48,162 nucleotides of DNA, from positions 1-48,162 of the IMG/VR virus record IMGVR_UViG_3300018416_000027, one strand, 5' to 3'. Shown here one piece after another: positions 6,915-48,162 of the stretch; the stretch's first letter is position 1, and each line of letters starts with the position of its first letter. Source of the DNA: a virus. The notes beneath the pieces were generated by a model that searched no databases, was not told where the DNA came from, and saw only the letters and a list, made by a program, of their open reading frames with translations. The position numbers and the translations under genes were made by a program.

Positions 6915-7568
6915 TTAAAAAGTGGAGTCTGCTTCCACGGCAACGTAGTAAACCAGATCGCTCGAAGCTGATTGAATGCGAGAGATTTTACGAGAGGACA
7001 AACTTACCTGATAGTCTCCAGGAAGCATCTTCAAGTTCTCTACTTTCAAGTTCACTTTGAACGTCTTATCGGTTGCGCCTACATCTGCGCTGTAAGAGTT
7101 ACCAGTGGCATTCTTTTTGTCACCGACAACAATACTCATAACGCTACCGTCGCCAACAACTGCTACATCTGATGCACGTAGGACAGAAGCAGTTTTATGA
7201 ATCATACCTAACATAGAAGCAGTCATCGTAAAGTCAATGTCAGACTCAGGGAATGTGATCGACTTTTGAGGAACGGTAAGGACAGAAGGATCTGCTGCAA
7301 AGTACTTGATGCTGTTTGAACCTTCTTGAATCGTAACATACTTCTCTTGGAAAGTTAGTTCAGGATCATCGAACAGCGACATCGCACCAAGGAATTCATT
7401 CAAGTCGTAGATACCAAAGTCAGGGAATGATTCACCGACAGTAGCATCAGCCATGATGTTCTTTTGTGCAGAGATGGTTGAAAGTTTATTACCTTCTTTG
7501 AGAAGAATGTTGGAGTTGATTCCAGCAAAGTTCTTAAAGAGAGCGAGTGTTTCTTTAGATAGTTTCAT
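6915..7568 (-). CDS. 45: Sliding clamp gp45
   Basis: A 217-aa homologue of the T4 processivity clamp, which forms a trimeric ring that tethers DNA polymerase and also activates late transcription with gp55. The N-terminus MKLSKETLALFKNFAGINSN and the beta-rich domains (residues 100-217: KSITFPESDIDFTMTASML, then VYYVAVEADSTF at the end) follow the gp45 pattern. T4 gp45 is 228 aa. It is the first gene after a near-consensus sigma70 promoter (7597-7625) and leads the 45-44-62-regA operon. Confidence 0.96.
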   Translation of the reverse strand: MKLSKETLALFKNFAGINSNILLKEGNKLSTISAQKNIMADATVGESFPDFGIYDLNEFLGAMSLFDDPELTFQEKYVTIQEGSNSIKYFAADPSVLTVPQKSITFPESDIDFTMTASMLGMIHKTASVLRASDVAVVGDGSVMSIVVGDKKNATGNSYSADVGATDKTFKVNLKVENLKMLPGDYQVSLSSRKISRIQSASSDLVYYVAVEADSTF

Positions 7569-9439: not shown

Positions 9440-9484
9440 AAGTATTTTCCTCTGTAAAATCAACAACTTACGACTCTACAGAGG
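9440..9484 (-). terminator. Stem-loop terminator after cobS
   Basis: CCTCTGTA/TACAGAGG (9477-9484 with 9449-9456) is followed by AAAATACTTGAAAAAAG. The loop contains GTAAGTTGTTGA, also found in the 1394-1421 terminator, marking both as copies of one cassette. Confidence 0.65.
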
Positions 9485-9492
9485 AATAACCC

Positions 9493-15865: not shown

Positions 15866-16456
15866 TTAGTTCTCCGAATCGTCTAAGTTCTCCATATCAT
15901 CCGAAGGATCATCATCGGTGTCAATAAAGTCTTCAAGAGATACATGGTTAGATTTTGCTTTTTTCGCTGCAGCACGTTGTTCACGTTTACGTTCAAAGAA
16001 ATCGTCAACTTGGTGATTGGACTGCATATGTTCCATGTATGTGTTGTGGAACAGGTTAGAATCTTCACCATCCTGTACGTCAAACAACTCCATAGGAAGT
16101 TCTTGAATCATCTTACCTTTGATGTAAGTTTGTTTCTTTTCTTTTTGGATTCTACGCAAGAACGCATAGTAGATAATCTGAGTGAAATAGGCGAATGGAT
16201 TATTAGATTTAGCTGGGTCAAAGTTATCAATATACTGGAGACAGTTTTCAATACCGTCCGAGATCATTTCTTCACGATAACTGTAGTTAATAAAATTTGG
16301 TTTGTACGACAGGTGTGTAGCAATCTTTAGGATACACTCTCCGATATAGTTACTCACTATCGGTTTGGGTTTGTCTTTCAGTTTAGCTTCTGTGACTTTC
16401 GATCGGTACTCAACAATCGCTTCCAAAAACTTTTTATTATCTACATAGTGCGCCAT
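15866..16456 (-). CDS. 55: Late-transcription sigma factor gp55
   Basis: A 196-aa minimal sigma factor. Residues 50-125 hold the conserved region 2-like part (FINYSYREEMISDGIENCLQ, then NPFAYFTQIIYYAFLRRIQK), which recognises the TATAAATA-type late promoters found in the virion gene block. The basic/acidic C-terminus would contact the gp45 clamp and polymerase. T4 gp55 is 185 aa. A sigma70-like promoter (16491-16519) drives it, so it is made before late genes switch on. gp33 is not visible in the window. Confidence 0.95.
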   Translation of the reverse strand: MAHYVDNKKFLEAIVEYRSKVTEAKLKDKPKPIVSNYIGECILKIATHLSYKPNFINYSYREEMISDGIENCLQYIDNFDPAKSNNPFAYFTQIIYYAFLRRIQKEKKQTYIKGKMIQELPMELFDVQDGEDSNLFHNTYMEHMQSNHQVDDFFERKREQRAAAKKAKSNHVSLEDFIDTDDDPSDDMENLDDSEN

Positions 16457-20952: not shown

Positions 20953-20964
20953 TTTAGTTTTCCT

Positions 20965-22029: not shown

Positions 22030-22068
22030 TGTTATCTCCTGTAAACTGGATAGTTCTTATGTAACTAT

Positions 22069-22076
22069 TATTTATA
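22069..22076 (-). promoter_or_regulatory. Perfect late promoter of gp22-gp23
   Basis: TATAAATA on the minus strand, about 40 bp before gp22 and just after the gp21 stop. This is the exact T4 late consensus. Confidence 0.85.
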
Positions 22077-22078
22077 AT

Positions 22079-22729: not shown

Positions 22730-22732
22730 TTG

Positions 22733-23149: not shown

Positions 23150-23150
23150 C

Positions 23151-23678: not shown

Positions 23679-23679
23679 T

Positions 23680-25628: not shown

Positions 25629-25655
25629 TATGTATCCCTATAATATCTTATAATC

Positions 25656-25663
25656 TACTTATG
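25656..25663 (-). promoter_or_regulatory. Weak late-promoter-like box before gp20
   Basis: The minus strand has CATAAGTA inside GCATAAGTAGA, one base away from the GCATAAATAGA context used before gp18 and the 953-aa gene. It is overlapped by the gp19 stop. Confidence 0.35.
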
Positions 25664-26252: not shown

Positions 26253-26278
26253 TTAAGTCTCCTTGTCTGTTCTTATCT

Positions 26279-26286
26279 ATTTATGC
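26279..26286 (-). promoter_or_regulatory. Late promoter of gp19
   Basis: CATAAATA on the minus strand, 27 bp before gp19, immediately downstream of the gp18 stop. Confidence 0.75.
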
Positions 26287-26288
26287 TC

Positions 26289-28511: not shown

Positions 28512-28544
28512 TGTTGTTCTCCTTGTTAATAAGTTTTACCTAGA

Positions 28545-28571
28545 CAACCTTATGTCTACATTTTATTTATG
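28545..28571 (-). promoter_or_regulatory. Late promoter plus leader hairpin of gp18
   Basis: CATAAATA (28571-28564) is followed on the minus strand by TAGACA-TAAGGT-TGTCTA, a six-bp hairpin in the late leader, and then GGAG before the start. Confidence 0.75.
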
Positions 28572-28583
28572 TTTTTTGGCTTT

Positions 28584-30161: not shown

Positions 30162-30907
30162 TAAAACTCAGATTCCCAATTTTCACTCGCTACTGTTGCT
30201 GTGGTAGTATCACCAGTTGCGACATACGTTCTGTTTGGATTAGACAAGTCTTCATTCTCGCCAATTTTAGCAGTAACTTGATCAATAATACCCTGATTCG
30301 ATACTGGACCAAACATGTTAACCTTCATAGTGAAAGTTAGGGTATGCGTCACAAAACGTCTCATGTTAAAGTCACCATCGTATTCATCAGTAACTGCAAC
30401 ACTATTTAGAATAATTGGTGTGTCCAGTTTGATATTCATTTCTGGGATAGCATTAACAGTTAACGTATATTCAGGAGTGAACGTTGGTAAAATCTGTTCA
30501 ATAATCTGTAGACCATCTTCTTGGGTCTTTGTAATAACATAAAGAGAAATGTCTAGGTTGTACGGTACTGGTGAAAACATAGTTTTCTTATTCAGCGTAC
30601 CATCACCACACTCAATCTGAGACATTCTGTTGGTTTTTCTCATTGGATCATAACTGTATCCAATAATTTCGAACGACATTCTTGGTAAAGAAGTGTATGT
30701 GTGCTGATCAAGATTTGGATCTTGCTCTAAACGAACTAGCCATTTTTCTTTAGGTGCATACGCTAGTGGAACTTTTAGACGCTGTGCTGTAGTTCCTGTT
30801 ACAGAGTCACCTTCTTTTCTATCAATGTAGATGTTACTAAAAAGTTTACCGAATGCAACGATAGACTTTCTAATTATTCCATGATAGTGAACGTTACCAT
30901 TAAGCAT
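30161..30907 (-). CDS. 15: Tail terminator / sheath stabiliser gp15
   Basis: A 248-aa protein in the gp13-gp14-gp15 order. It has the T4 gp15-type opening (VHYHGIIRKSIVAFGKLFSN), the segment KVPLAYAPKEKWLVRLEQDP, LPRMSFEIIGYSYDPMRKTN and PVPYNLDISLYVITKTQEDG. It caps the contracted tube and sheath and joins the tail to the neck. T4 gp15 is 272 aa. Both ends overlap neighbours. Confidence 0.93.
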   Translation of the reverse strand: MLNGNVHYHGIIRKSIVAFGKLFSNIYIDRKEGDSVTGTTAQRLKVPLAYAPKEKWLVRLEQDPNLDQHTYTSLPRMSFEIIGYSYDPMRKTNRMSQIECGDGTLNKKTMFSPVPYNLDISLYVITKTQEDGLQIIEQILPTFTPEYTLTVNAIPEMNIKLDTPIILNSVAVTDEYDGDFNMRRFVTHTLTFTMKVNMFGPVSNQGIIDQVTAKIGENEDLSNPNRTYVATGDTTTATVASENWESEF

Positions 30908-31806
30908 TAAACTTCTCCGAAGGGATTAGACTCATTAAACAAAATGTCCTTGGCTTCTTCATCGAAAGACATGTTATCACCATAACTTTCGACTTTATCA
31001 ATATCAACTTCGATCGTACAAGTAGCTTGAGCACCTACCCCATCGCCTCCGACAAAGGTAACGACAGGTGGTGTGCTATATTGTTGCCCACCAGCAGTGA
31101 CATTTACTGCAGTAATGATTCCATCAGTAACAACTGCTGTCGCAGAAGCACCGTAGCCACTAGATGATAATAATTGTACTTCAGGCACAGATGTATATCC
31201 AGAACCACCATTAGTTACAGTGATTGTAGTAACTGCTCCATACTTGGAACGAGTTGTGTTTGTGGTGAATGATTTTAGTGACTCGAATTCATCAACATCT
31301 TTAATGCCTGTATCAATTCGTTCACTGCTGTACTGGAACAATTCAACCTGTAATTTGTAAACGTATAGTTTACCTAGTTGATAGAAAGGATCCTGATGTT
31401 GTACAAATTTGATCTCAAACAGTCCTCCTGTGAGAGGAAAGTACAATAAATCACCTTCATTTGGTCTATTTGGAAGCGTTGTTGCGCCATAGCGACCAAT
31501 TAGTTGTTCCCAACGTCTACGTGCCACTGTTAGTGTGGCAGACTGTTCCATAGCAAGACCAAACTTCTGAATGAACGCACCTTGTCCTTCGAAACCATCT
31601 ACGTTTTCTAGATACATTTCGATAGGAAAAGATGATGTGAATTTACTTAGACGATCTTCACCAAGAATATTGTCTTTAGAAATAAGAGTCCTTGGAATGT
31701 AACGAAACTCTTGTCCCCAGATTCTAATTGATTCAACAATTAGATCTTCAACAATAGATTGTTCATTTCTTGTTCCGTGACTAAAGTAGACATTTGTAGT
31801 TGACAT
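30907..31806 (-). CDS. 14: Neck protein gp14 with sheath-type repeats
   Basis: A 299-aa neck protein: MSTTNVYFSHGTRNEQSIVE, IRIWGQEFRYIPRTLISKDN, then the KFGLAMEQSATLTVARRRWE core. Residues about 200-275 contain two copies of a GGSGY/GGQQY-type beta repeat (NGGSGYTSVPEVQLLSSSG and AGGQQYSTPPVVTFVGGDG) that also occurs in gp18. The C-terminus ends FDEEAKDILFNESNPFGEV, as in relatives. With gp13 it completes the head-tail connector. Confidence 0.94.
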   Translation of the reverse strand: MSTTNVYFSHGTRNEQSIVEDLIVESIRIWGQEFRYIPRTLISKDNILGEDRLSKFTSSFPIEMYLENVDGFEGQGAFIQKFGLAMEQSATLTVARRRWEQLIGRYGATTLPNRPNEGDLLYFPLTGGLFEIKFVQHQDPFYQLGKLYVYKLQVELFQYSSERIDTGIKDVDEFESLKSFTTNTTRSKYGAVTTITVTNGGSGYTSVPEVQLLSSSGYGASATAVVTDGIITAVNVTAGGQQYSTPPVVTFVGGDGVGAQATCTIEVDIDKVESYGDNMSFDEEAKDILFNESNPFGEV

Positions 31807-31807
31807 G

Positions 31808-32764
31808 TTACCCCATTATAAATTCTAGAGGAGCAGATTTATTTTGGATAATTTCATCCAATTCTCTAATTTCTGTATTGGCTTCATCATACATTGACTG
31901 ACCATCCAACTGAACACCTCCAGGAAGAGCAATACCACCAAACTTTTTGAGGTTTGTACCCCACTGTCTTTTAATCAAAGCAGCAGCGTAATGTTTAAGC
32001 CATGGATCGTCCCATACTTTAGACCATGTATTTGGATCCAATGCAGCATAGGTTTCCAATACGATATAATCACCAAGAATTACATCAACGTCCCAATTGA
32101 TATCAAGAAAGATTCTTCCTTGACGTCTGTTAAATCTGAAATTATTGTGCCCATTTAATTCATGGTCTAGCAAGGCTAGATGATTCATTACTGTTTTATA
32201 GTAAATTAATGATGTGGCTGTTAGATCATATAAGTCATTCAACCTTAGTTGATACTGCAAGTCAAAGATATTTTTAGAACTAGATGCCTGACCAAATGAA
32301 ATAACTTGGGTGACACCAAAGATGTGATCTGGTAATTCAATATAGCGTAGATCGTATTCACGCAATGTGATACCTTGTAGAGTTCCAGATGTGGAACTAT
32401 CTGCACCAACAATTATTTCACCACTTGTGAAATTGCCAACAACCTTCTGGACATATAGATCATTATTGTTAGATGTTCGGTGATCTTTAGTAACTTTGGC
32501 TGTAGCACCAGAAGTTTGTCCAGTGATAATCTCACCAAGAGCAAAGTCCTGAGCATTGTTACTTGTCAAAAGTATTTCTGAAGCACGCATTTGATGCTTC
32601 AAATAAACCTTTTCGATACCATCGTAATGATAATTTTGGTAATGCTCAACTGCTTCATCAATGCGATCTTCTACTTGGTCGTCATCAACGTTGATCTCAA
32701 CGACTGGTGCGCCTAGTAGTCTGAAGCAGTATTCTTTGAACCCTTGTCTTGATGAGACTGCCAT
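31808..32764 (-). CDS. 13: Neck protein gp13
   Basis: A 318-aa neck protein: SRQGFKEYCFRLLGAPVVEI, NVDDDQVEDRIDEAVEHYQN and YHYDGIEKVYLKHQM are characteristic of gp13. Residues 65-130 contain an insertion with two F-x-x-GE-I-x-G repeats (DFALGEIITGQTSGATAKVT and NFTSGEIIVGADSSTSGTLQ). The C-terminal part, FRFNRRQGRIFLDINWDVDV, is conserved. gp13 is a connector protein between portal and tail. Confidence 0.93.
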   Translation of the reverse strand: MAVSSRQGFKEYCFRLLGAPVVEINVDDDQVEDRIDEAVEHYQNYHYDGIEKVYLKHQMRASEILLTSNNAQDFALGEIITGQTSGATAKVTKDHRTSNNNDLYVQKVVGNFTSGEIIVGADSSTSGTLQGITLREYDLRYIELPDHIFGVTQVISFGQASSSKNIFDLQYQLRLNDLYDLTATSLIYYKTVMNHLALLDHELNGHNNFRFNRRQGRIFLDINWDVDVILGDYIVLETYAALDPNTWSKVWDDPWLKHYAAALIKRQWGTNLKKFGGIALPGGVQLDGQSMYDEANTEIRELDEIIQNKSAPLEFIMG

Positions 32765-32765
32765 A

Positions 32766-35700
32766 TTATTTTCCTAACTCAGCAACTTTTGCTTTTAGTT
32801 CTTCGATCTGTTTCTGTTGCTCTTTAATCGCTTCAATTAAGAGAGCGTGAACCTGATCGTATTGAACAATCTTGTATTTCTCACCACTGTCATCAACAAG
32901 TGGGAGTTCTTTTTCCATCACTGCTGACGGTAATACAGCTTCCATTTCTGTAGCTAGTACACCAGCAGATTTCTTACCATCATGTTTATATTCAAATTCA
33001 TATCCACTTAGAGACAAAACCTTATCAAGAGCATTTTCTACTTTCCTGATATTTGTTTTTAGTCTTGGGTCAGATAGAGTTGTTGAATAACCAATAACTT
33101 CAGTTCTAGCATGGATCGTACCACCGCTATCGACACGCATTTGTTCAGTGCCGTTAACAACAGATCTCTGCCATGCATTATTAGACCACTGAATGTAATC
33201 ACCAGAATCATAACCGATATGCGTGATAGAATCACGAAGATCAGTTTCCAAATCAAGAGTGATTGTAGTGCTACCAGTTTGGTTAACAGTAAATGAACCA
33301 CCAGAGTCAAGTCCACGTCCTGGATTGATAGTGATAGTACCATCACCGATAACAGCAGTGGCAGAAACCAGCCCAGTGATGTGACCAAATCCATCCAGAG
33401 TAATATCTTGAATGAAAGTATTACCAGAGTTATTAATAGAACCTTGTGAAGAGGTATCTGCGTGGGATAGTGTGATTGTCCCAGCCGAAGATTGGTTTGC
33501 TGAGAACGTGCCACTACCAGTCAATCCAGAACCAGTGTTAACAGTGAGTGTTCCATCACCAATTACGACAGTTCCTGATGTAGTTCCTGTTACGTGTCCA
33601 TACGTGTCAAACGTTAGATCTTGTATAAAGGTATTACCAGAGTTATTAACGTTAGAAACGCTAGAAGTATCTGCGTGGTTAACAGTAACGGTATTGGTTT
33701 CACCACCGCTATTTGTTTCAGATAGAGTGATACCAGAACCCTGTACAATATCAGCGACATAAGCACCAGTAGTATTTGCACCCAATTCTACAGAGTTATT
33801 GATAACTGTAGCATTAAGTGTTACATTAGAAGAACCGTCAATGCTAACAGATCCACTCAAATCACCACCAAGAGTGATAGTTCTTGCAGTAGTCCAATTA
33901 GCAGCAGAACCAGTAATGCTAGTTACGTCTAGAGTACCTTTTGTTCCTGTTACTGTGCCATTAGTTAATGTAGCGTTTGGTACAAAAGTAAAGTAACCAG
34001 TGCTTCTATCGAAACCAAAGTAACCTTGTCTTGCTTGAGTATCATACCAGCGGAAAGCAATGCCACGATCTAAACCATCATTAACAGTTGGAGGAGTATC
34101 ACCACCTAACTGAATGATCAAGTTATCTAAGTTAACTTCTGTAGAATTAACAGTAGTAACTGTACCGTTTACTGTAAAGTTTCCAGTGACAGTCAAGCTG
34201 TTGTTAATTGTAGTAGAACCAGAGGTAGAAGCCAACTGCAAATCAGTAGCTGCTCCGAACGCATTTACTGTGGTAGCATTCGTGTCAAACACATTCATCG
34301 TTGTAGCTGTGGTAGTAATATCACCACCATTTACCGCAACATCACCACCAAACGTTCCATTGGTTCCAGAAATGTTAGAACTAGAAACAATATTTCCTTG
34401 AGCAGCAACATTACCAGAGAATGTTCCGTCTGTGGCAGTTAGAGCATCAATTCTCAACGAACCATAGCTGAAAGAAGCATGAGATGTATCAACGTTACCG
34501 TTAATTTCTGGCTCATATTGGTCAAACATAATAAACTGATTTGATGCGACATCAAACATTGCACCAACGTGAGTATAACCAATACCAGTGGCACCTGTGT
34601 TTCTATTAGATGCCCAGCCTGTGTCTATGTTAATTGGACCAGCTTGACCATCCCAAGCATCACCAGAGGTGTGTCCAGTAGTAGCGTTAAACTGAATGCT
34701 AATATTACCATCAAGAAGCTGATCTGCTCCAGTAATATCAACACCATTCGCAATAATAGTAGTGAAATTATCTTTCGACCATTCAAAAGTATCTACGCCA
34801 CCAGTACCAGTTCCAACACCATCGATTCGAACATAATAGTGAATAACTGTTGTGCCTTCAAAATGACCAGTGAAATAAGCATCGTCAAGACCACTACCTG
34901 TAAATGTAGTATTAGCCTCGCCAATCGTATCACCTGAATTCATGTAGATGAATGAAGAATCCAAAGCAAGGTTTGCTTGATTTGTGATTGTTTGCGTACC
35001 TTGAACATTAAAGTCACCAGTAACAGTAACATTACCTGAAAGGTGTGTATTACCAGTAACACGGAACTGTTCAAAAGTATGCTCTTGAATTTTTACTGCA
35101 ATATAACCGTCTGATGCGTCAGAAATTACGCAAGTTCCAATATCTGTTGGGAAATATGGATATGTAGGAGCATTTGTCTGCAAAGCACCACTTGGACCAA
35201 CGTGAACACGCTGTCCTGCTGTCAAAGCAGAAGTGTCGATACCACTAACTAAACCAAACGCAGTAACGATGCCCTGAGAGTTGGCAGCAATATCATGAGT
35301 CGTTAAACCGATGACTTCTGCCTTCATAGCAGTTGATGCATCTCCAGGCTCAACAGTAGGTGTTTCACCTGTAGCACCTGTTACATAAACAGGTGTGCCG
35401 TTAGGAATTGTGGAAGCAGTGTTGTTGAAAACACGAATCCAGTTTTCCATACCGATTTGGTTTGAAATGCCAGCAATATCATTATAGTATGTTAATGCTT
35501 TATATTCTGAATTGTAAAATAGTGCACCCTCAGAGTGAGTAGGCGCAGAGGCTGACGTTGTGTCAAATTGTACATAAACGTCATTCTTCAGCGTAACAGC
35601 ATTTACATCGATATCAACAGTATTTACATTGTTGTTAAAGAATTGGAATGTATCTTCATTATTTCCAGGAGCAGTCTCTGTTAAAAGGTATGTATCTTGG

Positions 35701-37055
35701 TTTACGTCTTTAACGCCACCAAGTGAACCCCAAGCATTTCCTGGACCATAACCTTCAAAAGAAGATAGTTGGTTGTTATAACGAATTTGTCCAGCAACTG
35801 GCGTTGCATCACGTTGTGCTGTATTACCAGAAGGGATCTGAATAGAGTCTGTTGAATTGAATACTGTTTGAGTATTATTGATTGTCAATGTACCTGTTGA
35901 TGCACCGATATCAATAGTAGTCGCAGCACCGAAAGCGTTTACAGTAGTGGCAGTTGTGTCTAGCAAATCAAAGGATGTGCTAGTAGTTGACAATTCTGTG
36001 GTGACGACTGGGCTAGCAAGAGTCTTATTTGATATTGTTTGGGTAGCATCTACCATAACAAGATCGTCAGCTGTGGTCATATCCATGACCATTGTGTGTC
36101 CATCAGCACTAAAGTGTACTTCACCAAGACCACTATCATAAGATAGTTGCATACCACCTAGATCAAGAGTGTTGCCAGAAAGGTATAGATCTTTAAATCT
36201 TTTAGTGGTAGAACCCAAGTCATAGGTAACATCAGTATCTGGGATAATGCTTCCAGCTGCAGTTACTGCACCAATGGTTGCAGCACCAAGAGTTGTTGCT
36301 CCAGTTACGGACAGCGTACCATCAATGTCAGCGTTTCCACCAATATTGACATTCTCAGCAATACCTACACCGCCACCAATAGTTAGTGCGCCAGTAGTAT
36401 TACTTGTTGAAGTAGTCGTTCCAGAAATAGCAATTGAAGTGACACCAGCAAAATCTGTTTCAGATCCACCAAGATCAACAGAGGTTGTACCGATAGTAAC
36501 AGTAGCAGTAGCCCAATCTGGAGGGGTAGAAGCACCAGTTGATCGTAGGAAAGTACCTGTTGCTCCAGGAGCGATATAAGAAGTAGTGTCTGAAGCAGCT
36601 TGGTATGGCAAATAACCAGCAGATCCACCAGCGAGGTTATTCGCAAGAGTGGCGACAGTAGAAGTACCAACAGTCAAAGAGGAAGCATTTACCCAAGCAG
36701 GTGGGTTTGCACCACCTGAAGTTAATACTTGACCAGAAGAGCCAACAGCAGAAAGTCCTAGACCACTAGCTGTAGAATAAGCAAGAGCACCAGCAACGGC
36801 TGTGAGGGAAGAGCCTGTGCCGCCATATGCCATATCTACAATATTACCTTCCCAATTAGAACCTGTTGATAAGGTTTTATTGAGAAGAGTCTGCGTGGCT
36901 TGTGTTGTGACCATATAAGCACCACCACCTTGTGTGGTGCCATCATGTAGCCTGAGTGTTAATACGTCCGTATCAACTGTTAATTCACCGATAGCACCAG
37001 TGAACGCATTGTTTTGCGTTGTCGTGCCTCGTCTAAACTGTACTTGTGTTGCCAT
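32766..37055 (-). CDS. Long tail fiber with S74 intramolecular chaperone
   Basis: A 1429-aa fiber. The N-terminal 50 residues (QFRRGTTTQNNAFTGAIGEL) form the small attachment domain found on many aquatic phage fibers. A repetitive shaft with QTLxNKTL and SGNTFIQD-x-T-x-D-x-x-GH-x-TG repeats follows; near residue 1210-1310 two about 63-residue units are in tandem. The last 100 residues (SDPRLKTNIRKVENALDKVL, then VLATEMEAVLPSAV) are a peptidase S74 domain that trimerises the fiber and cleaves itself off. It probably mediates host recognition. It directly precedes gp13. Confidence 0.92.
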   Translation of the reverse strand: MATQVQFRRGTTTQNNAFTGAIGELTVDTDVLTLRLHDGTTQGGGAYMVTTQATQTLLNKTLSTGSNWEGNIVDMAYGGTGSSLTAVAGALAYSTASGLGLSAVGSSGQVLTSGGANPPAWVNASSLTVGTSTVATLANNLAGGSAGYLPYQAASDTTSYIAPGATGTFLRSTGASTPPDWATATVTIGTTSVDLGGSETDFAGVTSIAISGTTTSTSNTTGALTIGGGVGIAENVNIGGNADIDGTLSVTGATTLGAATIGAVTAAGSIIPDTDVTYDLGSTTKRFKDLYLSGNTLDLGGMQLSYDSGLGEVHFSADGHTMVMDMTTADDLVMVDATQTISNKTLASPVVTTELSTTSTSFDLLDTTATTVNAFGAATTIDIGASTGTLTINNTQTVFNSTDSIQIPSGNTAQRDATPVAGQIRYNNQLSSFEGYGPGNAWGSLGGVKDVNQDTYLLTETAPGNNEDTFQFFNNNVNTVDIDVNAVTLKNDVYVQFDTTSASAPTHSEGALFYNSEYKALTYYNDIAGISNQIGMENWIRVFNNTASTIPNGTPVYVTGATGETPTVEPGDASTAMKAEVIGLTTHDIAANSQGIVTAFGLVSGIDTSALTAGQRVHVGPSGALQTNAPTYPYFPTDIGTCVISDASDGYIAVKIQEHTFEQFRVTGNTHLSGNVTVTGDFNVQGTQTITNQANLALDSSFIYMNSGDTIGEANTTFTGSGLDDAYFTGHFEGTTVIHYYVRIDGVGTGTGGVDTFEWSKDNFTTIIANGVDITGADQLLDGNISIQFNATTGHTSGDAWDGQAGPINIDTGWASNRNTGATGIGYTHVGAMFDVASNQFIMFDQYEPEINGNVDTSHASFSYGSLRIDALTATDGTFSGNVAAQGNIVSSSNISGTNGTFGGDVAVNGGDITTTATTMNVFDTNATTVNAFGAATDLQLASTSGSTTINNSLTVTGNFTVNGTVTTVNSTEVNLDNLIIQLGGDTPPTVNDGLDRGIAFRWYDTQARQGYFGFDRSTGYFTFVPNATLTNGTVTGTKGTLDVTSITGSAANWTTARTITLGGDLSGSVSIDGSSNVTLNATVINNSVELGANTTGAYVADIVQGSGITLSETNSGGETNTVTVNHADTSSVSNVNNSGNTFIQDLTFDTYGHVTGTTSGTVVIGDGTLTVNTGSGLTGSGTFSANQSSAGTITLSHADTSSQGSINNSGNTFIQDITLDGFGHITGLVSATAVIGDGTITINPGRGLDSGGSFTVNQTGSTTITLDLETDLRDSITHIGYDSGDYIQWSNNAWQRSVVNGTEQMRVDSGGTIHARTEVIGYSTTLSDPRLKTNIRKVENALDKVLSLSGYEFEYKHDGKKSAGVLATEMEAVLPSAVMEKELPLVDDSGEKYKIVQYDQVHALLIEAIKEQQKQIEELKAKVAELGK

Positions 37056-39956: not shown

Positions 39957-40691
39957 TTAGAATCCAAAAATAATTGCGTAGCCGATATAATCAGCCTTCA
40001 CGGATTGGTCAATATTACTTAATGACACAATACCATCTAGTTTAAGTTGCCCCAGATCGTATATTTGCACTGTCGTCTCATATACAAAACCAAGATTTTC
40101 AATCGAAGAAAGGTTAGTTGCTTCTGTTACTAGCCCCAAATCAGATGTTGCCTGTGGTGCGAAAATCGCAGAGGCAACAACAGAATCGTTATCACCAACA
40201 ACCCATGAGGATCCGTTGAAGATAAGGATTTGTTGGGATGTCGCTCCTGATGTTGAGACGTTTGTTAAGTCTCCGAGTTCAAGAGTTTCAAATTGGGTGT
40301 TACCAGATCCATCTGTCGATAGATATGATTTAGGCAAATTGCCAGCGGTGGTCGGTAAGAACCAATCGTTATTAACCTTTAGTTTACCATTTTCTAAGGT
40401 TAAAATATCTGAAGACCCTAATTTTTGAGTGCCGTTGACCAACACAAATTCTCCGCTTGCGCCGAGTGTGTCAACTGTAGGATCTGTTAGAGTTTTATTT
40501 GTGAGAGTCTGTGTACCATCTAATGTGGCAATAGAAACGATAGAGTCTATACCACCAGTACTTGTTTGATCTTTTTTGAAGAATAAGTCACCGTCATAGG
40601 TGTTAATTGCAAGTTCTCCGAGGTCTAGCGTTCCCGTAGAAGGAACACGACCTGAAACTGCAGATCTTCTTAATTTAATAGAGTTTGCCAT
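39957..40691 (-). CDS. Short fiber-like protein (244 aa)
   Basis: A 244-aa protein with the small N-terminal fiber module (MANSIKLRRSAVSGRVPSTG, then LDLGELAINTYDGDLFFKKD) and a TQTLTNKTLTDPTVDTLG motif used in phage fiber shafts. It has no S74 domain. It resembles a short fiber or an adaptor for one. It lies 11 bp upstream of the 953-aa gene and shares its transcript. Confidence 0.78.
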   Translation of the reverse strand: MANSIKLRRSAVSGRVPSTGTLDLGELAINTYDGDLFFKKDQTSTGGIDSIVSIATLDGTQTLTNKTLTDPTVDTLGASGEFVLVNGTQKLGSSDILTLENGKLKVNNDWFLPTTAGNLPKSYLSTDGSGNTQFETLELGDLTNVSTSGATSQQILIFNGSSWVVGDNDSVVASAIFAPQATSDLGLVTEATNLSSIENLGFVYETTVQIYDLGQLKLDGIVSLSNIDQSVKADYIGYAIIFGF

Positions 40692-40720
40692 TATAACCTA
40701 TTCTATGTAGAACAATTTAA

Positions 40721-40772
40721 CCAGTATATACTGGGTGGGTGAGGAAAACCTCACCCCCTCACTTTTATTTAG
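40721..40772 (-). promoter_or_regulatory. Late-type promoter with leader hairpin and palindrome
   Basis: CTAAATAA (40772-40765) is followed by GGGTGAGG-TTTT-CCTCACCC (40737-40756) and then a perfect 14-bp palindrome CCAGTATATACTGG (40721-40734), all before the 244-aa gene. No U-tract follows the hairpin, so a 5' leader structure is more likely than a terminator. Confidence 0.5.
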
Positions 40773-40781
40773 CCAACTTAT

Positions 40782-43574
40782 TTAATATGTGCCACCGTCT
40801 ATTTCAAAACCATCCAATAAAGACGCACCAGCACCAGCACCAGTTAAGTTAGCGTTAACAATAACATTACCATCAACACCTAGTGTACCAGCGATAGCAG
40901 TATTACCAGTCGTACCAGCAACGGTAAACTTATTAGTATTTACTGATAAGCTACCTGTAAAGGCTGCTGTGCTAGAAGTAGTTATAGTAGTAAACGAACC
41001 AGCTGCTGCAGTAGTTTGACCAATTGGAGTGGCATTGATAACACCACCAGTAATTGTCAAATCATCATTAATATTAGCATCGGCGATTGATGTGCCATTC
41101 CACACACCAGTAGTAATTGTGCCAAGTGTGGTAATAGAAGATTGACCAACATATGTTGATGCAATATCAATACTATTAGCCCCAGCTGTGATGCGATCAG
41201 CAGTACCGACAACATCTAGAACACCATCAGTATAAGTTAAACCGTCACCAGCCACAGAGGTTGCTAGAGATACCTCATCAGCAGTTACTGTGATACCATT
41301 ACCAGCACCAACGTTAAAGATCGTACCTGATTGTGTTAGACCAGAACCAGCAGTATAAGCACCAGCACCAGAGAACTGAACCCAAGTCTGTCCTGTGAAT
41401 GATGTTAAGTAATGGTTAGTTTGAACCCAACCAGTATTAGCGTATACAGTACCTTCTTGAACGAATACTGAAGAACCATCTAGTTCTTGGTAAGTATCAG
41501 CATCATCTGCACGAACAAGAGTATAAGATGTTCCATTGTCTGTATAGACATAGATACCGTTTTCAGAGGAGTCTGTCTGTCCAGTTAACAATAGACGATA
41601 AGTTCCATCGTCTGCCTGATCAAGCGCAGCGTGGCTATCAATTACTAGAGTAGAAGTAGAACCTGTTAGTGCTACATTACTATCTGCATGTAAGTTAACA
41701 GCATCTTTGTAGGACAAGCCAGTAACAGCATTATCAACATAGTATTTTGTCGCAGCATCAGCATCGTTAACTGGCTCTGCCAAGTTAGCGATAGTGTTGG
41801 AATTCATGTCAACAGTACCGTTGAACGAAGAAGTTCCAGTTACTGCAAGTGTTCCACCAACAGTAGCATTACCAGTAACACCTAGCGTGCCACCAAGAGT
41901 TGTAGCACCAGTGACACCCAATGTGCCAGCGATAGATGTGTTACCAGAAGCTGCTGTAACGTTAAACTTGTTAGTGTTAATAGCAAGATCGTTTGTTACT
42001 GCTAGTGTGCCACCAAGAGTTGTAGCACCAGTGACACCAAAGGAACCACCAACAGTAGTATTACCAGTGATACCCATTGTACCAGCAACTGTGGTATTAC
42101 CAGAGGTAGCAGAGACGGTAAACTTATTTGTAGCAACTGCAAAGTTACCAGCAACGTCTAATGTAGAACTTAGAGTAGCTGCGCCAGTAACACCTAATGT
42201 TCCACCAAGTGTAGTAACACCGAGAACACCAAGGTTTGTCAACCCTGTCAATGAGGCAGTAGTTGAACCTAGTTCTAGAGTAGATCCACCTAGCGTAATT
42301 GCTTTAGCAGCAACAGCACCACCAGTAACAGTAAAGTTTGTAGCTGCAAAAGATGCCACACCCTTATTGGTTGTAGTCGCATCTTCACCAGAAACTGTTA
42401 CAGTATTATCTGTTACAGCAATATCAATACCTTCACCACCAGTGAAAGTTAAAGTATCTGATAGAATTGATACGCCATCGGCACCTGTGTCGCCAGCGAT
42501 GTTTAGAGTTGTTGCGACTGATACAGAACCAGCAGCTGTCAAACGACCTTGTTGGTCAACAGTGAATGTTGGGATGTTAGTCGCATCACCGTATGACCCA
42601 GGAGTTACCGTAGTATCATCTAGATCAATGGTTAAACTATTTGCACCAACTGATGTGGTGATACCAGTATCACCAGTGATTGATAGTGTTTCACCAAGCG
42701 CAACAGCATCAGGTGAACCAGAATCTCCTGAGATATTGATACTAGAATTTGTTAGCTTAGAATTGGCGATAGAACCAGCGATAAGAACTAGGCTAGTAGT
42801 ACCAGCGTCATCATCGTAGGTTGAGTCAATTTCTGCAGAGTCAACAATACCACCACCAGCAACGTCTTGAATATACTCAGTAAGAGTTACAAGAGAGCCA
42901 GCTTGTTCGATATATGGATTGTATAGATTTACCGCACCAGTACCATTTGGTTGGAGAGTAATATTACCATTTGTATTAGTTGATGTGATGGAGTTACCAT
43001 CAACAGTAATGTTATCTACTACAACAGAGGTAAATGCGCCAGTGCTTGGTGTTACATTACCAATTGGCGTGTTGTTTAAACTGGTGAAAGACGCTGCTTG
43101 ACCAGAAAATGTACCACCAAGATATAGATCGCCAGCAATACCAACACCACCAGCAACAATCAATGCGCCAGTAGAAGTGCTTGTGGATGCTTTAGTGCCT
43201 GTTAATGATACCGTTCCTGTTCCATTTGGGGCAAGAATCAAGTCACCATTAGCATTTGTAGTGCTTAGTGTATTACCGTTTAGTGATAGATTATCAACAA
43301 GTAGTTGATCTAATTTTTTATCAGCATCGACAATGAGTGCAGAAGATGCTGTTAGCACCCCTGGAACATGGTCGAGTCTATCTGTAAATACTGTACCACC
43401 AATAACTAGGTGGTTAGCTGCATTTCCGTTTGTTTCTGTACCAATACCAATATAAAGGCGTTCGCCTCCATTGGAACCGTTATCGGCTAATGCTGAATAT
43501 GCGAGTTCACCAGCTGCTAGCGTACTTGGATTTCCGCTAGTGCTGGAACGTTTAATTCGGATGATTGATGCCAT
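40782..43574 (-). CDS. Repetitive tail fiber (930 aa)
   Basis: A 930-aa fiber. The N-terminal module MASIIRIKRSSTSGNPSTLA, then AGELAYSALADNGS matches those of the neighbouring fibers. The middle (about residues 440-600) is a run of short repeats of the form LGVTGATTLGGTLGVTG with NTNKFTVSA-type spacers. Next comes the AEPVNDADAATKYYVDNAVT motif common in tail fibers, and a final shaft. There is no S74 domain. Repeated DNA at 120-bp spacing (41887-41918 and 42007-42038) shows recent or recombining duplication. Confidence 0.88.
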   Translation of the reverse strand: MASIIRIKRSSTSGNPSTLAAGELAYSALADNGSNGGERLYIGIGTETNGNAANHLVIGGTVFTDRLDHVPGVLTASSALIVDADKKLDQLLVDNLSLNGNTLSTTNANGDLILAPNGTGTVSLTGTKASTSTSTGALIVAGGVGIAGDLYLGGTFSGQAASFTSLNNTPIGNVTPSTGAFTSVVVDNITVDGNSITSTNTNGNITLQPNGTGAVNLYNPYIEQAGSLVTLTEYIQDVAGGGIVDSAEIDSTYDDDAGTTSLVLIAGSIANSKLTNSSINISGDSGSPDAVALGETLSITGDTGITTSVGANSLTIDLDDTTVTPGSYGDATNIPTFTVDQQGRLTAAGSVSVATTLNIAGDTGADGVSILSDTLTFTGGEGIDIAVTDNTVTVSGEDATTTNKGVASFAATNFTVTGGAVAAKAITLGGSTLELGSTTASLTGLTNLGVLGVTTLGGTLGVTGAATLSSTLDVAGNFAVATNKFTVSATSGNTTVAGTMGITGNTTVGGSFGVTGATTLGGTLAVTNDLAINTNKFNVTAASGNTSIAGTLGVTGATTLGGTLGVTGNATVGGTLAVTGTSSFNGTVDMNSNTIANLAEPVNDADAATKYYVDNAVTGLSYKDAVNLHADSNVALTGSTSTLVIDSHAALDQADDGTYRLLLTGQTDSSENGIYVYTDNGTSYTLVRADDADTYQELDGSSVFVQEGTVYANTGWVQTNHYLTSFTGQTWVQFSGAGAYTAGSGLTQSGTIFNVGAGNGITVTADEVSLATSVAGDGLTYTDGVLDVVGTADRITAGANSIDIASTYVGQSSITTLGTITTGVWNGTSIADANINDDLTITGGVINATPIGQTTAAAGSFTTITTSSTAAFTGSLSVNTNKFTVAGTTGNTAIAGTLGVDGNVIVNANLTGAGAGASLLDGFEIDGGTY
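41887..41918. repeat. 32-bp exact direct repeat, copy 1
   Basis: Identical to 42007-42038, exactly 120 bp apart, within the TTLGGTLGVTG-type repeat array of the 930-aa fiber. The flanking DNA is also similar. Confidence 0.85.
42007..42038. repeat. 32-bp exact direct repeat, copy 2
   Basis: Second copy of the repeat at 41887-41918. Codon-level identity rather than only protein similarity implies recent duplication or gene conversion. Confidence 0.85.
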
Positions 43575-43589
43575 CTTTTATGTCTCCAA

Positions 43590-43835
43590 TTAGAATTCTC
43601 CACCTTCCATGTTCTGTGCATCGAGGGTGGTTGTGGCTGTCCACTTATTTGTTAACGTTTTATAAACCAGAACAGAGCCGTTTAGTTTGGTTGTGGTATC
43701 AACATCAGCGACGTTCGAGAGGGATTCTACGACGCTAGGATTCGTTGTGTTAGTTGATGCCAACGTAATTGAGTTTTCAGCAACTGCAACTTGCAGTGCC
43801 TCGTCCTCTGATATGACTGCGTATGTTTCTGCCAC
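43590..43835 (-). CDS. Small structural-type protein (81 aa)
   Basis: An 81-aa protein (MAETYAVISEDEALQVAVAE) with a TTKLNGSVLVYKTLTNKWTA motif, which resembles the DGSVLVYNxxTxxW segment often found in phage fiber proteins. It is small and Thr/Ser/Asn-rich. It lies two bases after the 111-aa gene and 15 bp before the 930-aa fiber, so it is part of the fiber operon. It may link or trim a fiber. Confidence 0.65.
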   Translation of the reverse strand: MAETYAVISEDEALQVAVAENSITLASTNTTNPSVVESLSNVADVDTTTKLNGSVLVYKTLTNKWTATTTLDAQNMEGGEF

Positions 43836-43836
43836 G

Positions 43837-44172
43837 TTAAACCTTAGTAATTTGCGGAGTTACAGTTACAATCCCTTCAACAACACGAGTACGTGTCCCA
43901 GAAGGTGACTCTATTTCTACATCATAAAGATATCTGCCTGCTGGGATTGCTTCCGACTGTTCATCAGTCAGTTGTAATCTCACTTTGCCTGCAGTGGCAT
44001 TGTAAATGCTAGCCGTGAATGCATATGCTGTGCTGGATTGGTACGACTTCCTCATCTGGGAAGCGACAGAATACCCTGTCAAATCTAATGCTGATCCATT
44101 AGATGCGCTTACAGTAATAATATTACTATATGTGCTTCCAGCGTCCACGTATATATTGCTAATTGTTGCCAT
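43837..44172 (-). CDS. Ig-like baseplate/fiber accessory protein (111 aa)
   Basis: A 111-aa beta-sandwich-like protein: VDAGSTYSNIITVSASNGSA, LDLTGYSVASQMRKSYQSST, then KVRLQLTDEQSEAIPAGRYL and YDVEIESPSGTRTRVVEGIV. The pattern 'LTGY-x-x-x-x-x-R-K ... G-x-x-x-L-x-L-x-x-x-Q-x-x-x-I-x-x-G-x-Y-x-Y-D-x-E' is shared with small phage baseplate/upper-tail proteins. A function as fiber attachment or spacer is inferred. It is the first gene after the late promoter at 44200-44207. Confidence 0.75.
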   Translation of the reverse strand: MATISNIYVDAGSTYSNIITVSASNGSALDLTGYSVASQMRKSYQSSTAYAFTASIYNATAGKVRLQLTDEQSEAIPAGRYLYDVEIESPSGTRTRVVEGIVTVTPQITKV

Positions 44173-44173
44173 T

Positions 44174-44220
44174 TGAAAAAATCCCTCAGTTTACTTCTTT
44201 ATTTATAAGCTGAGGGATTT
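44174..44220 (-). terminator. Terminator with a late promoter in its loop
   Basis: The eleven-bp perfect stem AAATCCCTCAG/CTGAGGGATTT (44210-44220 with 44179-44189) is followed by TTTTTC. It ends the RCC1 gene. The loop contains a perfect TATAAATA (44207-44200) pointing at the 111-aa gene. Confidence 0.93.
44200..44207 (-). promoter_or_regulatory. Perfect late promoter in the terminator loop
   Basis: TATAAATA on the minus strand within the loop of the 44179-44220 hairpin. A transcript starting from it would carry only one arm of the stem and so escape termination. Confidence 0.8.
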
Positions 44221-44246
44221 GAGGTTCCTAAGAATTTAAATGTTGA

Positions 44247-46364
44247 TTAAAAATTGAAACTTGTGTATCCACCCAAATATCCACCACTTCGTGCTGAGCT
44301 GAAAACAACGTCAAAGCCATAATACCAAGATTGGTTAGTTGTACCTACAATTCTATTATTATCAGCGATAAAGAAGAAACCATTAGACGTACCTTCTGTT
44401 TGAGGTTGTACCATAGTTACATTCTCTTGGAATCGTGGCATAACAGGCGTGTAGTCTGAGAAATAAACTTCGAACGGTAGAGTTTGGTTTTTGCGGAAAA
44501 AGTCATCAGGGTTTGAAGTCCAGTGACCAATACCACGACCAGCATAACCACCATCATAACCGTTAGTCCATGTTCTACCATCTCGGTTTAGATAAAGGAA
44601 TGTTGCGCCATCATCACTACCACCACAAGCAACATAACAAATATCTGTCATTGGTCCAGTAACAACTGGGACAGGGAATGCAACACCACCAGGATTGGTA
44701 CCAACTGGATTATCACCACTATGTTCATTCACCATTTTGTGTACGTCATATGATGCTACGACACCATTATAACGACCAACCGAATACATCAATCCTGTAT
44801 CTTTTTCCTTCATAACCAAGTGTCCCTGACCAGAAGTAATACGATAGTTAATCCAGAAATCTTCAACTTGACCAGCCATGTTGATCAATGAAGTTAGATG
44901 TTTATCTTTTCTTCCAATGCCAAGAGCATTAGCATTTGCTCTAAACGTATCAATTAATGGACGCATATGAGCGATCCATGTGGTTCTAGTAGCACCAGCA
45001 CCTGTCCATGAATACGAACCATTAGACATATAACCAGTATTATGTAAATTACCGTCATGCGTTAGTACGTTGATGGAGTTGTGAGAACCATCACCGAAAG
45101 CAATAACCTTCTTGATACCACCAAACTTCTGCCAGTCATATTTAATTATTTCTGGACGATAGTTGTAGCCTGTGTTACCTGTGCCTCCACCATAGCCAGC
45201 ATAACCACAGAAATACAAATCACCATCTTCAGTTTGGAATACAGTTGATTGATAGTCAACACCATACATCCAACCGTCAACAATTTTCTTATTATGGAAC
45301 CAGTGCTGTGGAATTTGAGTTGGTACAGAATAGTTGCTTGTATTACCGTGACCTAGCTGACCATAACCATTATAACCCCATGTCCAAACTTTACCAGTAT
45401 CAGAGATAACGAAACAGCTGTGTGTGTCAAGATCGGTACCATCACCACCTTTAGTTGATTGACCAACTTTGATAACATGGACGTCTCTTAAAACACCTGT
45501 ACCACGCCCACCAGTGCGACCAACACGTCTAGCGTAATGGTATGTACTTGTAGTACCATCACCTGATTGACCATGCCCACCATATCCAATATGATAAACT
45601 TCGCCATTATCAAACAAAACTAAGTTATGATTTAAGTTTGAAGTGTATTGGATGACACGAGGAGGTTCTCCTGTGATTGAAGGACGATAGTTATCTTTAT
45701 AATCCCAGAAGTCAAATGCAGCAGTCATACCATGAGTATACATAGAGCATGTGTAGTCAGGTGATCCACCAACGTTCCAGTTGCTAGTTTCGCCAATACC
45801 ACCACCTTGGTGACCACCATGTTTCATTCCAAGGAATGTCATCTGATACTTACCGTTGATAGTAGCAATTCTGTTTGAACCAGCATTACCATACATTTCA
45901 TTGGTTTCGCCACAGTTTCTAGTCCAACCCATTGGAGGGTAGTTACCGAACCAGATGTGGTTTTTATGTTTATTTTCTCTGGCAGATTTCGCAGTTAAAA
46001 TCCATTTGTTCGTTAAAGCACCGTTTTCATAGATTGGATGACCATCATAATGATCAACGAGACATTGATACATGTCACCATTATATTTTACGATATCACC
46101 TTGTTGCCAATACTGATGGATCGCCCACTGCCCACGCATTTTAGAACCTTGAGAGATAGCCAACCAGTTAGTTGAATTAATATCAGGCTTGGTGCTTGGT
46201 CCGAATCTTAAATTTTCTTTTAAGTCATCATTGATACAAACGTACATTCGTCCATTAATGCTAACAGTATCGTTCCGACGGTAAATTGTACCAACATCCC
46301 ACTCACCCTTCCAATTTTGTTTGAGTTGCGAAATATCAATATCACCGTGTAATGCGTTAATCAT
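44247..46364 (-). CDS. RCC1-repeat virion protein (705 aa)
   Basis: A 705-aa protein. The first 130 residues hold two WKGEWDVGTIYRRNDTVSIN / MRGQWAIHQYWQQGDIVKYN modules, the G-x-W-x-x-x-x-x-Y-x-x-x-D-x-V pattern of carbohydrate-binding chitinase-type modules. The rest is a beta-propeller made of RCC1-type repeats (KVWTWGYNGYGQLGHGNTSN, VYHIGYGGHGQSGDGTTSTY, DLYFCGYAGYGGGTGNT). Phage RCC1 proteins lie in fiber regions and may act as adhesins. The start overlaps the upstream stop as TAATG, and a terminator follows. Confidence 0.9.
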   Translation of the reverse strand: MINALHGDIDISQLKQNWKGEWDVGTIYRRNDTVSINGRMYVCINDDLKENLRFGPSTKPDINSTNWLAISQGSKMRGQWAIHQYWQQGDIVKYNGDMYQCLVDHYDGHPIYENGALTNKWILTAKSARENKHKNHIWFGNYPPMGWTRNCGETNEMYGNAGSNRIATINGKYQMTFLGMKHGGHQGGGIGETSNWNVGGSPDYTCSMYTHGMTAAFDFWDYKDNYRPSITGEPPRVIQYTSNLNHNLVLFDNGEVYHIGYGGHGQSGDGTTSTYHYARRVGRTGGRGTGVLRDVHVIKVGQSTKGGDGTDLDTHSCFVISDTGKVWTWGYNGYGQLGHGNTSNYSVPTQIPQHWFHNKKIVDGWMYGVDYQSTVFQTEDGDLYFCGYAGYGGGTGNTGYNYRPEIIKYDWQKFGGIKKVIAFGDGSHNSINVLTHDGNLHNTGYMSNGSYSWTGAGATRTTWIAHMRPLIDTFRANANALGIGRKDKHLTSLINMAGQVEDFWINYRITSGQGHLVMKEKDTGLMYSVGRYNGVVASYDVHKMVNEHSGDNPVGTNPGGVAFPVPVVTGPMTDICYVACGGSDDGATFLYLNRDGRTWTNGYDGGYAGRGIGHWTSNPDDFFRKNQTLPFEVYFSDYTPVMPRFQENVTMVQPQTEGTSNGFFFIADNNRIVGTTNQSWYYGFDVVFSSARSGGYLGGYTSFNF

Positions 46365-46975
46365 TATACACCTTCCTCTGTATTAAGTTCTTCTGAAATA
46401 TCTGGGGTGCCAAGGATTGTGTTTTCTACATCTGCTGGCGTTTCTGAATAAAATAATCTTAATTCTGGAAGATCAGGAGATTCAATTACAATTTCTTCAG
46501 GAATCATTGTATCAAGATCTGCTATGTAATCAAACCCAACTGGAACAATTGATTTTTTATATAAGTCTTCATAAGAATCAAATAATTCGGGGTCGTATTC
46601 TGTAGCACCCAACCAACTTGCGTATGTTGAATCAGCATCCATCTTTGATTTAATTTCAGCATTCGTTTCATATGCTGTTTTAATAATATCATTATATTTA
46701 GATGCGTCTTCTACGATGTAATCTTGACTTTCTTCTGCTGCTAGCAGTTCCTCTGTAATATCTTGGTGGACAGAGTGATACCATCTACCATCAAAACAAA
46801 CTAAAGGGACAGCTTCAACTTCAGGAACATAAGTAGGGTCAACCTGCCCTACTTTATATTCTCTATCTACACCATCTTCTTTAATAGTAATATCTTCTTC
46901 TAAAACTCGGCTCTTAGCAAAGATTTCAGGAAAGTATACGCTACTGTCATTGGATTGTGATATAATTCTTCTCAT
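46364..46975 (-). CDS. Acidic protein between two RCC1 genes (203 aa)
   Basis: A 203-aa very acidic protein (pI low by composition). It starts MRRIISQSNDSSVYFPEIFA and contains VCFDGRWYHSVHQDITEELL. Further on are several Glu/Asp-rich segments (ESPDLPELRLFYSETPAD). It lies between the two RCC1-type genes and overlaps the downstream one. It may be a fiber chaperone or linker, judging only from position. I do not recognise the family. Confidence 0.72.
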   Translation of the reverse strand: MRRIISQSNDSSVYFPEIFAKSRVLEEDITIKEDGVDREYKVGQVDPTYVPEVEAVPLVCFDGRWYHSVHQDITEELLAAEESQDYIVEDASKYNDIIKTAYETNAEIKSKMDADSTYASWLGATEYDPELFDSYEDLYKKSIVPVGFDYIADLDTMIPEEIVIESPDLPELRLFYSETPADVENTILGTPDISEELNTEEGV

Positions 46976-46986
46976 TTACGTTTCCT

Positions 46987-48162
46987 TTACGTTGCGTTAT
47001 GTACTGGCTGTGGGGCATAAGCATGTCCTTGCCATGGGAAATTATAGTTATAATCTCTGCCTGCTACACAAACATCTCCATCAGCACTCATGAAGAATGC
47101 GTGCACGATATGACTTGATGTTCCATCATAATCACCACATCCCCAGATAAGTTTTGTATTTTTAATAAATTCTCTTGCCATCATAACTCGCTGGAAACCA
47201 GTAGCAGTAGAATTGGATCCAACTTGCTGTTGACGATAGTGTTGATTGCCAGCATAATCTGTAGTACCAAAACCAGCAGCACCATAACCATTCCATCCAC
47301 CACCATAGGCAACACCTGAGGCGTCTAGAATTGTATAATGGTTACCACCTGATCTACCACCCTGTGTTACTTGAACAACGTCAGTGATAACACCGTTTGG
47401 TCCATATACTAGTGTTGGAGAAGTTCTATTTGATGTGGTTGTTCCGAAGATATAATGACCACCATGACCTGAACCCCACAATTGATTAGAGGAAGACAAG
47501 AAGAACGCATTGTTCTGACCACCGCCACCAACCCACAGATTTTCAACACCACCACCAATGCTCCATGAATATGTTGATGAAACTCTAATCATGGTAGAAG
47601 CATTAGTATCGCTAGTTTCGTTATTTCTGCCTAGTAGACCAGAACCATTATAACCACAGTTCCAAACATGTCCTTGCCCATCAAGAACCCAGAAGTTATC
47701 ATAGTTCTCACTACTATTCACAATAAACTTCTGGACACCGCCATAGCTAGAAAAGTTAATAGGAACCATTTTTGGCTCATAGCTACGGTCGGATGATTCA
47801 AAACCAGAATTTGTTGGGTATCCCAATTGTCCGTAGTTATTACGACCCCATGCCCAGAGACGCCCATCTTCTGTCATCACATAAGAACTTTCATAACCAG
47901 CAGCGATGTCAATAATTCTAAGACCACCAAAATACAAGTCTCTGTTTAAATTGTATGGGCTAGTAATGTAAGATGTGTTATTGATTCTGGCACCAGTATT
48001 GAGACTCTCATTTGCGCCAGTACCGTTCTTAGTACCGATTTGTCCGTAGTTATTGTTACCCCAAATCCAAACCTCACCATATTCGTCCAACGCTATCGTA
48101 TGGGTGTTATCAGCACGGCTACAATAAGTGCCAGTAACGAGTTTAACAATTCGACGACCACC
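46987..48162 (-). CDS. Second RCC1-repeat protein, 5' end outside the window
   Basis: An open frame of 391 residues runs from the right edge of the window to a stop at 46987. The frame continues upstream of the internal Met at 48090, with KLVTGTYCSRADNTHTIALD before EYGEVWIWGNNNYGQIG, so the gene is cut by the window. It consists of RCC1-type repeats (RLWAWGRNNYGQLGYPTNSG, HVWNCGYNGSGLLGRNNETS, GSGHGGHYIFGTTTSN). It likely forms a beta-propeller adhesin like its neighbour. The two differ enough to be old paralogues. Confidence 0.88.
   Translation of the reverse strand, partial: GGRRIVKLVTGTYCSRADNTHTIALDEYGEVWIWGNNNYGQIGTKNGTGANESLNTGARINNTSYITSPYNLNRDLYFGGLRIIDIAAGYESSYVMTEDGRLWAWGRNNYGQLGYPTNSGFESSDRSYEPKMVPINFSSYGGVQKFIVNSSENYDNFWVLDGQGHVWNCGYNGSGLLGRNNETSDTNASTMIRVSSTYSWSIGGGVENLWVGGGGQNNAFFLSSSNQLWGSGHGGHYIFGTTTSNRTSPTLVYGPNGVITDVVQVTQGGRSGGNHYTILDASGVAYGGGWNGYGAAGFGTTDYAGNQHYRQQQVGSNSTATGFQRVMMAREFIKNTKLIWGCGDYDGTSSHIVHAFFMSADGDVCVAGRDYNYNFPWQGHAYAPQPVHNAT

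Follow-up and report, generated by a model that had tools for sequence, protein, structure and literature searches.

A late promoter in the loop of a hairpin that probably conceals the ribosome-binding site of a tail gene in a Kyanoviridae-like phage

What does a late promoter do inside the loop of a hairpin that resembles a transcription terminator? This question is raised by a short element on the minus strand of the window, by which we mean the whole stretch of DNA analyzed, 48,162 bases long and corresponding to the entire virus record. The hairpin sits between an RCC1-like gene of 705 amino acids (aa) and a tail gene of 111 aa, both on the same strand, with 74 nucleotides (nt) from the end of the former to the ATG of the latter (Table 1). 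The first-pass annotation had placed a late promoter box in the 20-base loop of an eleven-bp stem, and this geometry is confirmed: the stem comprises 11 perfect base pairs, the loop is 20 nt long (10 nt if weak inner pairs are counted), and the minus-strand RNA reads 5' arm, box, 3' arm (CTGAGGGATTT), TTTCAA, and ATG, with the TATAAATA box beginning 35 nt upstream of the start codon. What that annotation did not contain, and what is the main point here, is that the 3' arm holds the Shine-Dalgarno sequence of the 111-aa gene.

Table 1. Coordinates of the element and of genes relevant to it in the window
Feature	Coordinates	Strand	Basis or remark
5' arm of hairpin, AAATCCCTCAG	44210..44220	-	Stop codon of 705-aa gene 26 nt upstream; expected to be missing from late transcripts
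T4-type late promoter box TATAAATA, in loop	44200..44207	-	Sequence match; contig encodes gp55; box kept in 65/68 homologous loci
Expected +1 of late transcript	44194	-	Inferred from T4 spacing
3' arm of hairpin, CTGAGGGATTT, with Shine-Dalgarno sequence inside	44179..44189	-	Sequence
Shine-Dalgarno sequence GAGG of 111-aa gene	44184..44187	-	11 nt 5' of ATG, a rather long spacing
T6 run at end of hairpin; candidate terminator tail and Shine-Dalgarno-to-ATG spacer	44176..44181	-	Sequence
111-aa tail gene	43837..44172	-	PHROG 1084; second, PHROG 3304, L-shaped tail fiber protein assembly
705-aa gene, RCC1 repeats and CBM 5/12 module	44247..46364	-	Upstream of element
Late sigma factor gp55 homologue	15866..16456	-	PHROG 234, E 2.3e-62, scan of window ORFs
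Sliding clamp gp45 homologue (in T4, late transcription activator)	6915..7568	-	PHROG 223, E 7e-73

The assignment of the box as a late promoter is well supported by sequence. Besides gp55 and the sliding clamp gp45, the window encodes further T4-like proteins, namely, a clamp loader, gp46/gp47-type nuclease subunits, and a RegA-type translation repressor, as well as the T4-like structural and packaging proteins portal, major capsid protein, tail sheath, tail tube, and terminase. When IMG/VR was scanned with the 111-aa protein, 68 loci were retrieved, 65 of which (66 rows with the window) carry a NATAAATA box at most 60 nt from the start codon. Two of the three loci without the box (L063 and L070) are cut by the end of the contig, and the third (L067) has CTAAATA instead. 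This sequence stands at the place expected for NATAAATA upstream of the 111-aa homologue and resembles a late promoter variant described for phage Aeh1 (PMC1524935). A sigma-70 promoter scan of positions 40000 to 48162 found no site at the element, where the promoter is the late box, and an Rfam search returned no family at the element, its only matches being four tRNAs. Four tRNA genes (Pro, Tyr, Thr, and Asn) lie at positions 1965 to 2719 of the window. The nearest named relatives of the 111-aa protein are found in the Methylophilales phages Melnitz (48 to 50% identity), followed by those in Pelagibacter, Synechococcus, and Prochlorococcus phages, mostly Kyanoviridae; the window virus is a Kyanoviridae-like phage of aquatic bacteria.

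Late promoter boxes of T4 occupy positions -13 to -6 relative to the transcript start (PMC1524935). Applying this spacing to the box puts the expected +1 inside the loop, five bases upstream of the 3' arm, with the 5' arm entirely upstream of the expected start; a late RNA is therefore expected to carry the 3' arm without the 5' arm. Thus, the earlier proposal that the new transcript begins after the first arm stands as an expectation from T4 spacing.

On its own, the box is unremarkable, since TATAAATA has three exact copies in the window and 2.7 are expected by chance. That box and hairpin were combined by chance is unlikely. With the box held fixed and the two 40-nt flanks shuffled, 11 bp of pairing was reached 2 times in 5000, and the same length was found at 3 of 20000 random window positions. 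These two figures argue against the view that the locus is an ordinary late promoter with its leader, in which the inverted repeat is a functionless by-product of base composition or history. Across the 252 NATAAATA sites of the window, T4, and nine relatives (partial in four cases), the longest inverted repeat over any site is that of the present element, none of the other 251 being as long. The minus-strand RNA folds with a predicted energy of -17.6 kcal/mol (z of -2.8), with 3 of 200 shuffles equally good.

Folding predictions indicate what the hairpin might do to the 111-aa gene. In the read-through RNA, the predicted helix covers the Shine-Dalgarno sequence, and opening the start region (-20 to +12) is predicted to cost 17.4 kcal/mol, compared to 4.2 kcal/mol in the late RNA. 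Shuffling of the 5' flank brings the mean cost to 8.7 kcal/mol, with the native value reached in 2 of 200 shuffles. The Shine-Dalgarno sequence remains weakly paired in the predicted late transcript of the window (unpaired 0.23). Judging from these folds, the 111-aa gene is probably translated only from messages begun at the late promoter. Our preferred reading, to which we assign a probability of about 0.7, is that the late promoter is nested within a hairpin concealing the ribosome-binding site (RBS), like those of T4 genes e and I-TevI. Polymerase coming from the 705-aa gene would produce an RNA with both arms, which would fold and block translation of the 111-aa gene, while some of this read-through RNA might be terminated at the U-run. 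Polymerase recruited by gp55 and gp45 would instead start at around 44194 and omit the 5' arm, yielding a leader of about 22 nt in which the Shine-Dalgarno sequence is open. Translation of the tail gene would then proceed solely from its own late transcripts, independently of the upstream context.

The first tests for such pairing in relatives were blunt: burial of the 6-nt Shine-Dalgarno sequence and then cross-promoter pairing, each compared with shuffled flanks. At single loci, burial gave a p value of <0.05 in 8 of 52 cases, and cross-promoter pairing was significant in 6 of 49, so that single-locus tests were mostly not significant, as the by-product view would have it. However, known T4 positives also fail the shuffled-flank test (gene e, p = 0.15; soc, p = 0.10), and for this reason we adopted a swap test with a shifted control, in which the own flank of a locus and the flanks of other loci are compared against its own start region. 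Over 24 leader clusters, the mean duplex energy was -9.64 kcal/mol for own flanks versus -7.96 kcal/mol for permuted partners (p = 0.0004), a p value that, like all those from this test, is not that of a blind test, the swap test having been picked after the leaders had been looked at. With just 16 nt of flank the p value was 0.0001, and with the flank taken from 42 nt further upstream as the shifted control it was 0.48. Split by clade, the near clade gave a p value of 0.0025 (12 clusters) and, with the window removed, of 0.003 (11 clusters), whereas the far clade (12 clusters) showed no co-adaptation (p = 0.21). A DNA-level search of named phages with the leader and the gene gave no match, after which named-phage relatives were sought by protein; with these added and the window excluded, the swap test gave a p value of 0.0025 over 32 clusters. 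According to these comparisons of predicted duplexes, the arms vary yet stay matched, and conservation of pairing between the promoter-proximal flank and the ribosome-binding region is seen in the nearer clade only.

Among the named phages (12 loci examined, from 193 records), 10 loci have the box, and three of these, Melnitz-1, Melnitz-3, and C48C1, have a strong hairpin with other arm sequences. The remaining seven boxed phages have no strong hairpin, and in most marine phages examined the late promoter of the 111-aa gene presumably works without one. This would suit the idea of a by-product, which we nevertheless consider distinctly improbable, given that the near-clade co-adaptation is also found without the window and that the shifted control is flat. 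The pattern in relatives bears on two further explanations as well. The symmetry of the repeat about the promoter might mark a DNA operator for a protein over the late promoter, and T4 has such operators, as described for I-TevI over its late promoter (PMC2988022); yet the arms differ widely among relatives while pairing is kept, and the partner is specifically the start region, which leaves this reading extremely improbable. Alternatively, the hairpin might mainly shield the 3' end of the upstream mRNA against exonucleases, for which its stable fold and its location 26 nt past the upstream stop codon would be suitable, but the pairing partner across relatives is the downstream start region, even though the upstream genes differ, and we hold such protection as the main role to be very unlikely.

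Other leader layouts were observed along the way. In a distant group (L053, L054-L057, L059, and L061), the late box is itself part of the 5' arm (CCCTTATAAAT... pairing with ...TTATAAGGG), and the Shine-Dalgarno sequence AAGGG lies in the 3' arm, followed by 4 to 7 T, an arrangement related to the one described here. Five relatives (G001, G002, G003, G005, and G007; L073, L082, L099, L123, and L126) share a similar leader, TAAATAA...NATAAATA...TTATTTA, with two near-tandem late-type boxes.

The genome-wide search that the first-pass annotation had called for showed that late promoters do not in general have this arrangement. An inverted repeat of 7 bp or longer was found at 20 of 252 NATAAATA sites, compared to 25 of 407, 19 of 413, and 16 of 363 control-word sites. 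Pairing was also surveyed in 97 late-box/ORF pairs from the window, T4, and nine relatives, in which the 111-aa gene accounts for the two most stable cross-promoter pairings (in relative G005 and in the window); the next strongest include the one at T4 I-TevII and one at two divergent late promoters of T4. Two of the seven copies of the 111-aa gene in this survey were significant, while the other genes in non-T4 pairs reached p ≤ 0.05 in 2 of 62 cases, which is chance level. The device is specific to the 111-aa gene and not general in these genomes. As a separate observation, two overlapping divergent TATAAATA boxes lie at positions 116450 to 116461 of T4 (NC_000866), and the flanks of each pair with the Shine-Dalgarno region of the other; repeats of this type can arise at divergent genes in the absence of a switch.

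Does the hairpin also terminate transcription? A reading compatible with an RBS-hiding hairpin is that the hairpin serves chiefly for intrinsic termination of the upstream gene, with transcription restarting from the loop promoter and the 47 bp acting as an insulator. The GC-rich core of the stem (CCCTCAG/CTGAGGG) is followed by A and T6, the 3' arm continuing into the T6 run and then C, and this holds for the minus strand only, there being no U-run after the stem on the plus strand. The position shortly past the upstream stop codon would be fitting, the arms resemble canonical terminators located just 5' of the box in the clusters of L007 and L009, and a search of viral contigs for the same arms found three contigs with other loops and a longer T-run. 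One of these three, L143, which has AATAAATA in the loop, was taken as a chance occurrence, with a tape-measure-like ORF and, as its translations read, no T4-like genes. The insulating terminator as originally proposed is weakly supported. The loop is long at 20 nt, and the terminator score is -2.7 at best; since five other window hairpins score +23.9, +5.4, -1.0, -37.3, and -55.2 by the same formula, this score does not settle the matter. (The minus-strand word GTAAGTTGTTGA is common to two window hairpins, at 1393 to 1422 and 9447 to 9486, whose stems are otherwise different.) Moreover, the U-run is not conserved with the hairpin: as read off the leaders, the automatic tail count being uninformative (3 T for the window itself), at least 5 T after the Shine-Dalgarno sequence are found only in the window, L053, L056, and L057. 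In L026 and L027, where the upstream gene is homologous (708 aa, 47% identity), the hairpin is retained with changed arms and the U-run is lost, so that none is present in L026 despite the same gene pair. Some relatives (L007, L009, L013, L022-L025, and L034-L038) have a separate canonical terminator of the AAATCCCTC-TTCG-GAGGGATTTTTT type just 5' of the late box, and because of this the roles of terminator and leader hairpin are separable. Finally, the combination of hairpin and U-run is not enriched, occurring at 3 of 252 NATAAATA sites compared to 1 of 407, 1 of 413, and 2 of 363 control-word sites. Taken together, we regard termination as the main function of the hairpin as unlikely, whereas partial termination as a secondary role is possible.

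What might be gained from an RBS-hiding hairpin at this place? Contig G011 has the same gene pair, and in the stretch upstream two late boxes precede five ORFs, after which comes the 708-aa gene. By analogy with this gene order, the upstream operon may be late too in this lineage, in which case the gain could lie in controlling two late units separately and not in an early/late delay; a block of early translation, which such switches ordinarily serve, would then not apply. If the window is like G011, the device would separate, for example, a variable adhesin operon from a tail gene. The upstream operon in L147 (G011, 20001-36000) includes three ORFs (705, 856, and 708 aa) whose starts look alike and which may be paralogues; the 708-aa one is homologous to the 705-aa RCC1/CBM protein of the window. 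It is tempting to speculate that, in Kyanoviridae-like phages, a single hairpin brings part of the upstream late transcription to an end, keeps the read-through RNA from being translated, and hosts the late promoter of the next unit. If this tentative suggestion were true, the element would, in compact form, insulate two late operons from each other in both transcription and translation, where a variable adhesin operon meets the tail genes, and upstream adhesin genes could be exchanged without disturbing the dose of the downstream protein. Such a use is not described for T4 e-type switches in those portions of the literature that we drew upon.

The closing question is how the element compares with known systems. 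In T4 gene e (lysozyme), and also in soc and gene 49, the late box lies 5' of the start, as here; the 5' strand of the helix is at or before the promoter and the 3' strand is over the Shine-Dalgarno sequence, and the late RNA is without the inhibitory helix, as would be expected here too (PMC3014915). In T4, the e-type device ensures that earlier read-through RNA does not give rise to late proteins (PMC3014915, PMC2988022). In contrast, the gene concerned here is a tail gene and not one of lysis or recombination, the phage is Kyanoviridae-like, the stem is longer (11 perfect bp) and is followed by a U-run, and the upstream operon seems late, so that an early/late delay is not evident. Cyanophages are listed as lacking gene e in PMC3014915. 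A further parallel is provided by T4 I-TevI, I-TevII, I-TevIII, and segB and by Aeh1 mobE, whose late transcripts lack the sequence for the RBS-hiding helix, as we would expect for the 111-aa gene (PMC2988022). These genes encode homing endonucleases and lie within early or middle units, and here the gene is a tail gene; in addition, I-TevI binds its own promoter, and there is no sign of such binding here. Promoter-early stem-loops (PeSLs) have an early promoter beside a stem-loop. Like the present element, they are composites of promoter and stem-loop at gene boundaries in a variable part of the genome of T4-like phages (PMC4503421). They differ from it in that here the promoter is late and inside the loop and the stem covers the Shine-Dalgarno sequence. 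A search of mostly open-access literature yielded no report of this element, nor of a switch in such a gene, phage group, or late/late setting.

With the RBS-hiding reading, a classic T4 control device known from lysis and homing genes also serves a tail gene in environmental T4-like phages, and since it is also found in cultured phages of marine methylotrophs (Melnitz), it can be tested there. Where a promoter lies in the loop of an apparent terminator, the hairpin may act chiefly to block translation, and terminator predictions in such phages therefore need to be checked for overlap with the RBS. If the late/late setting is true, decoupling adjacent late operons would be a second use of the device. 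The working principle is already known from T4; the gene, the phage group, and the late/late setting would be new relative to the literature searched, together with a possible extra role of the U-run.
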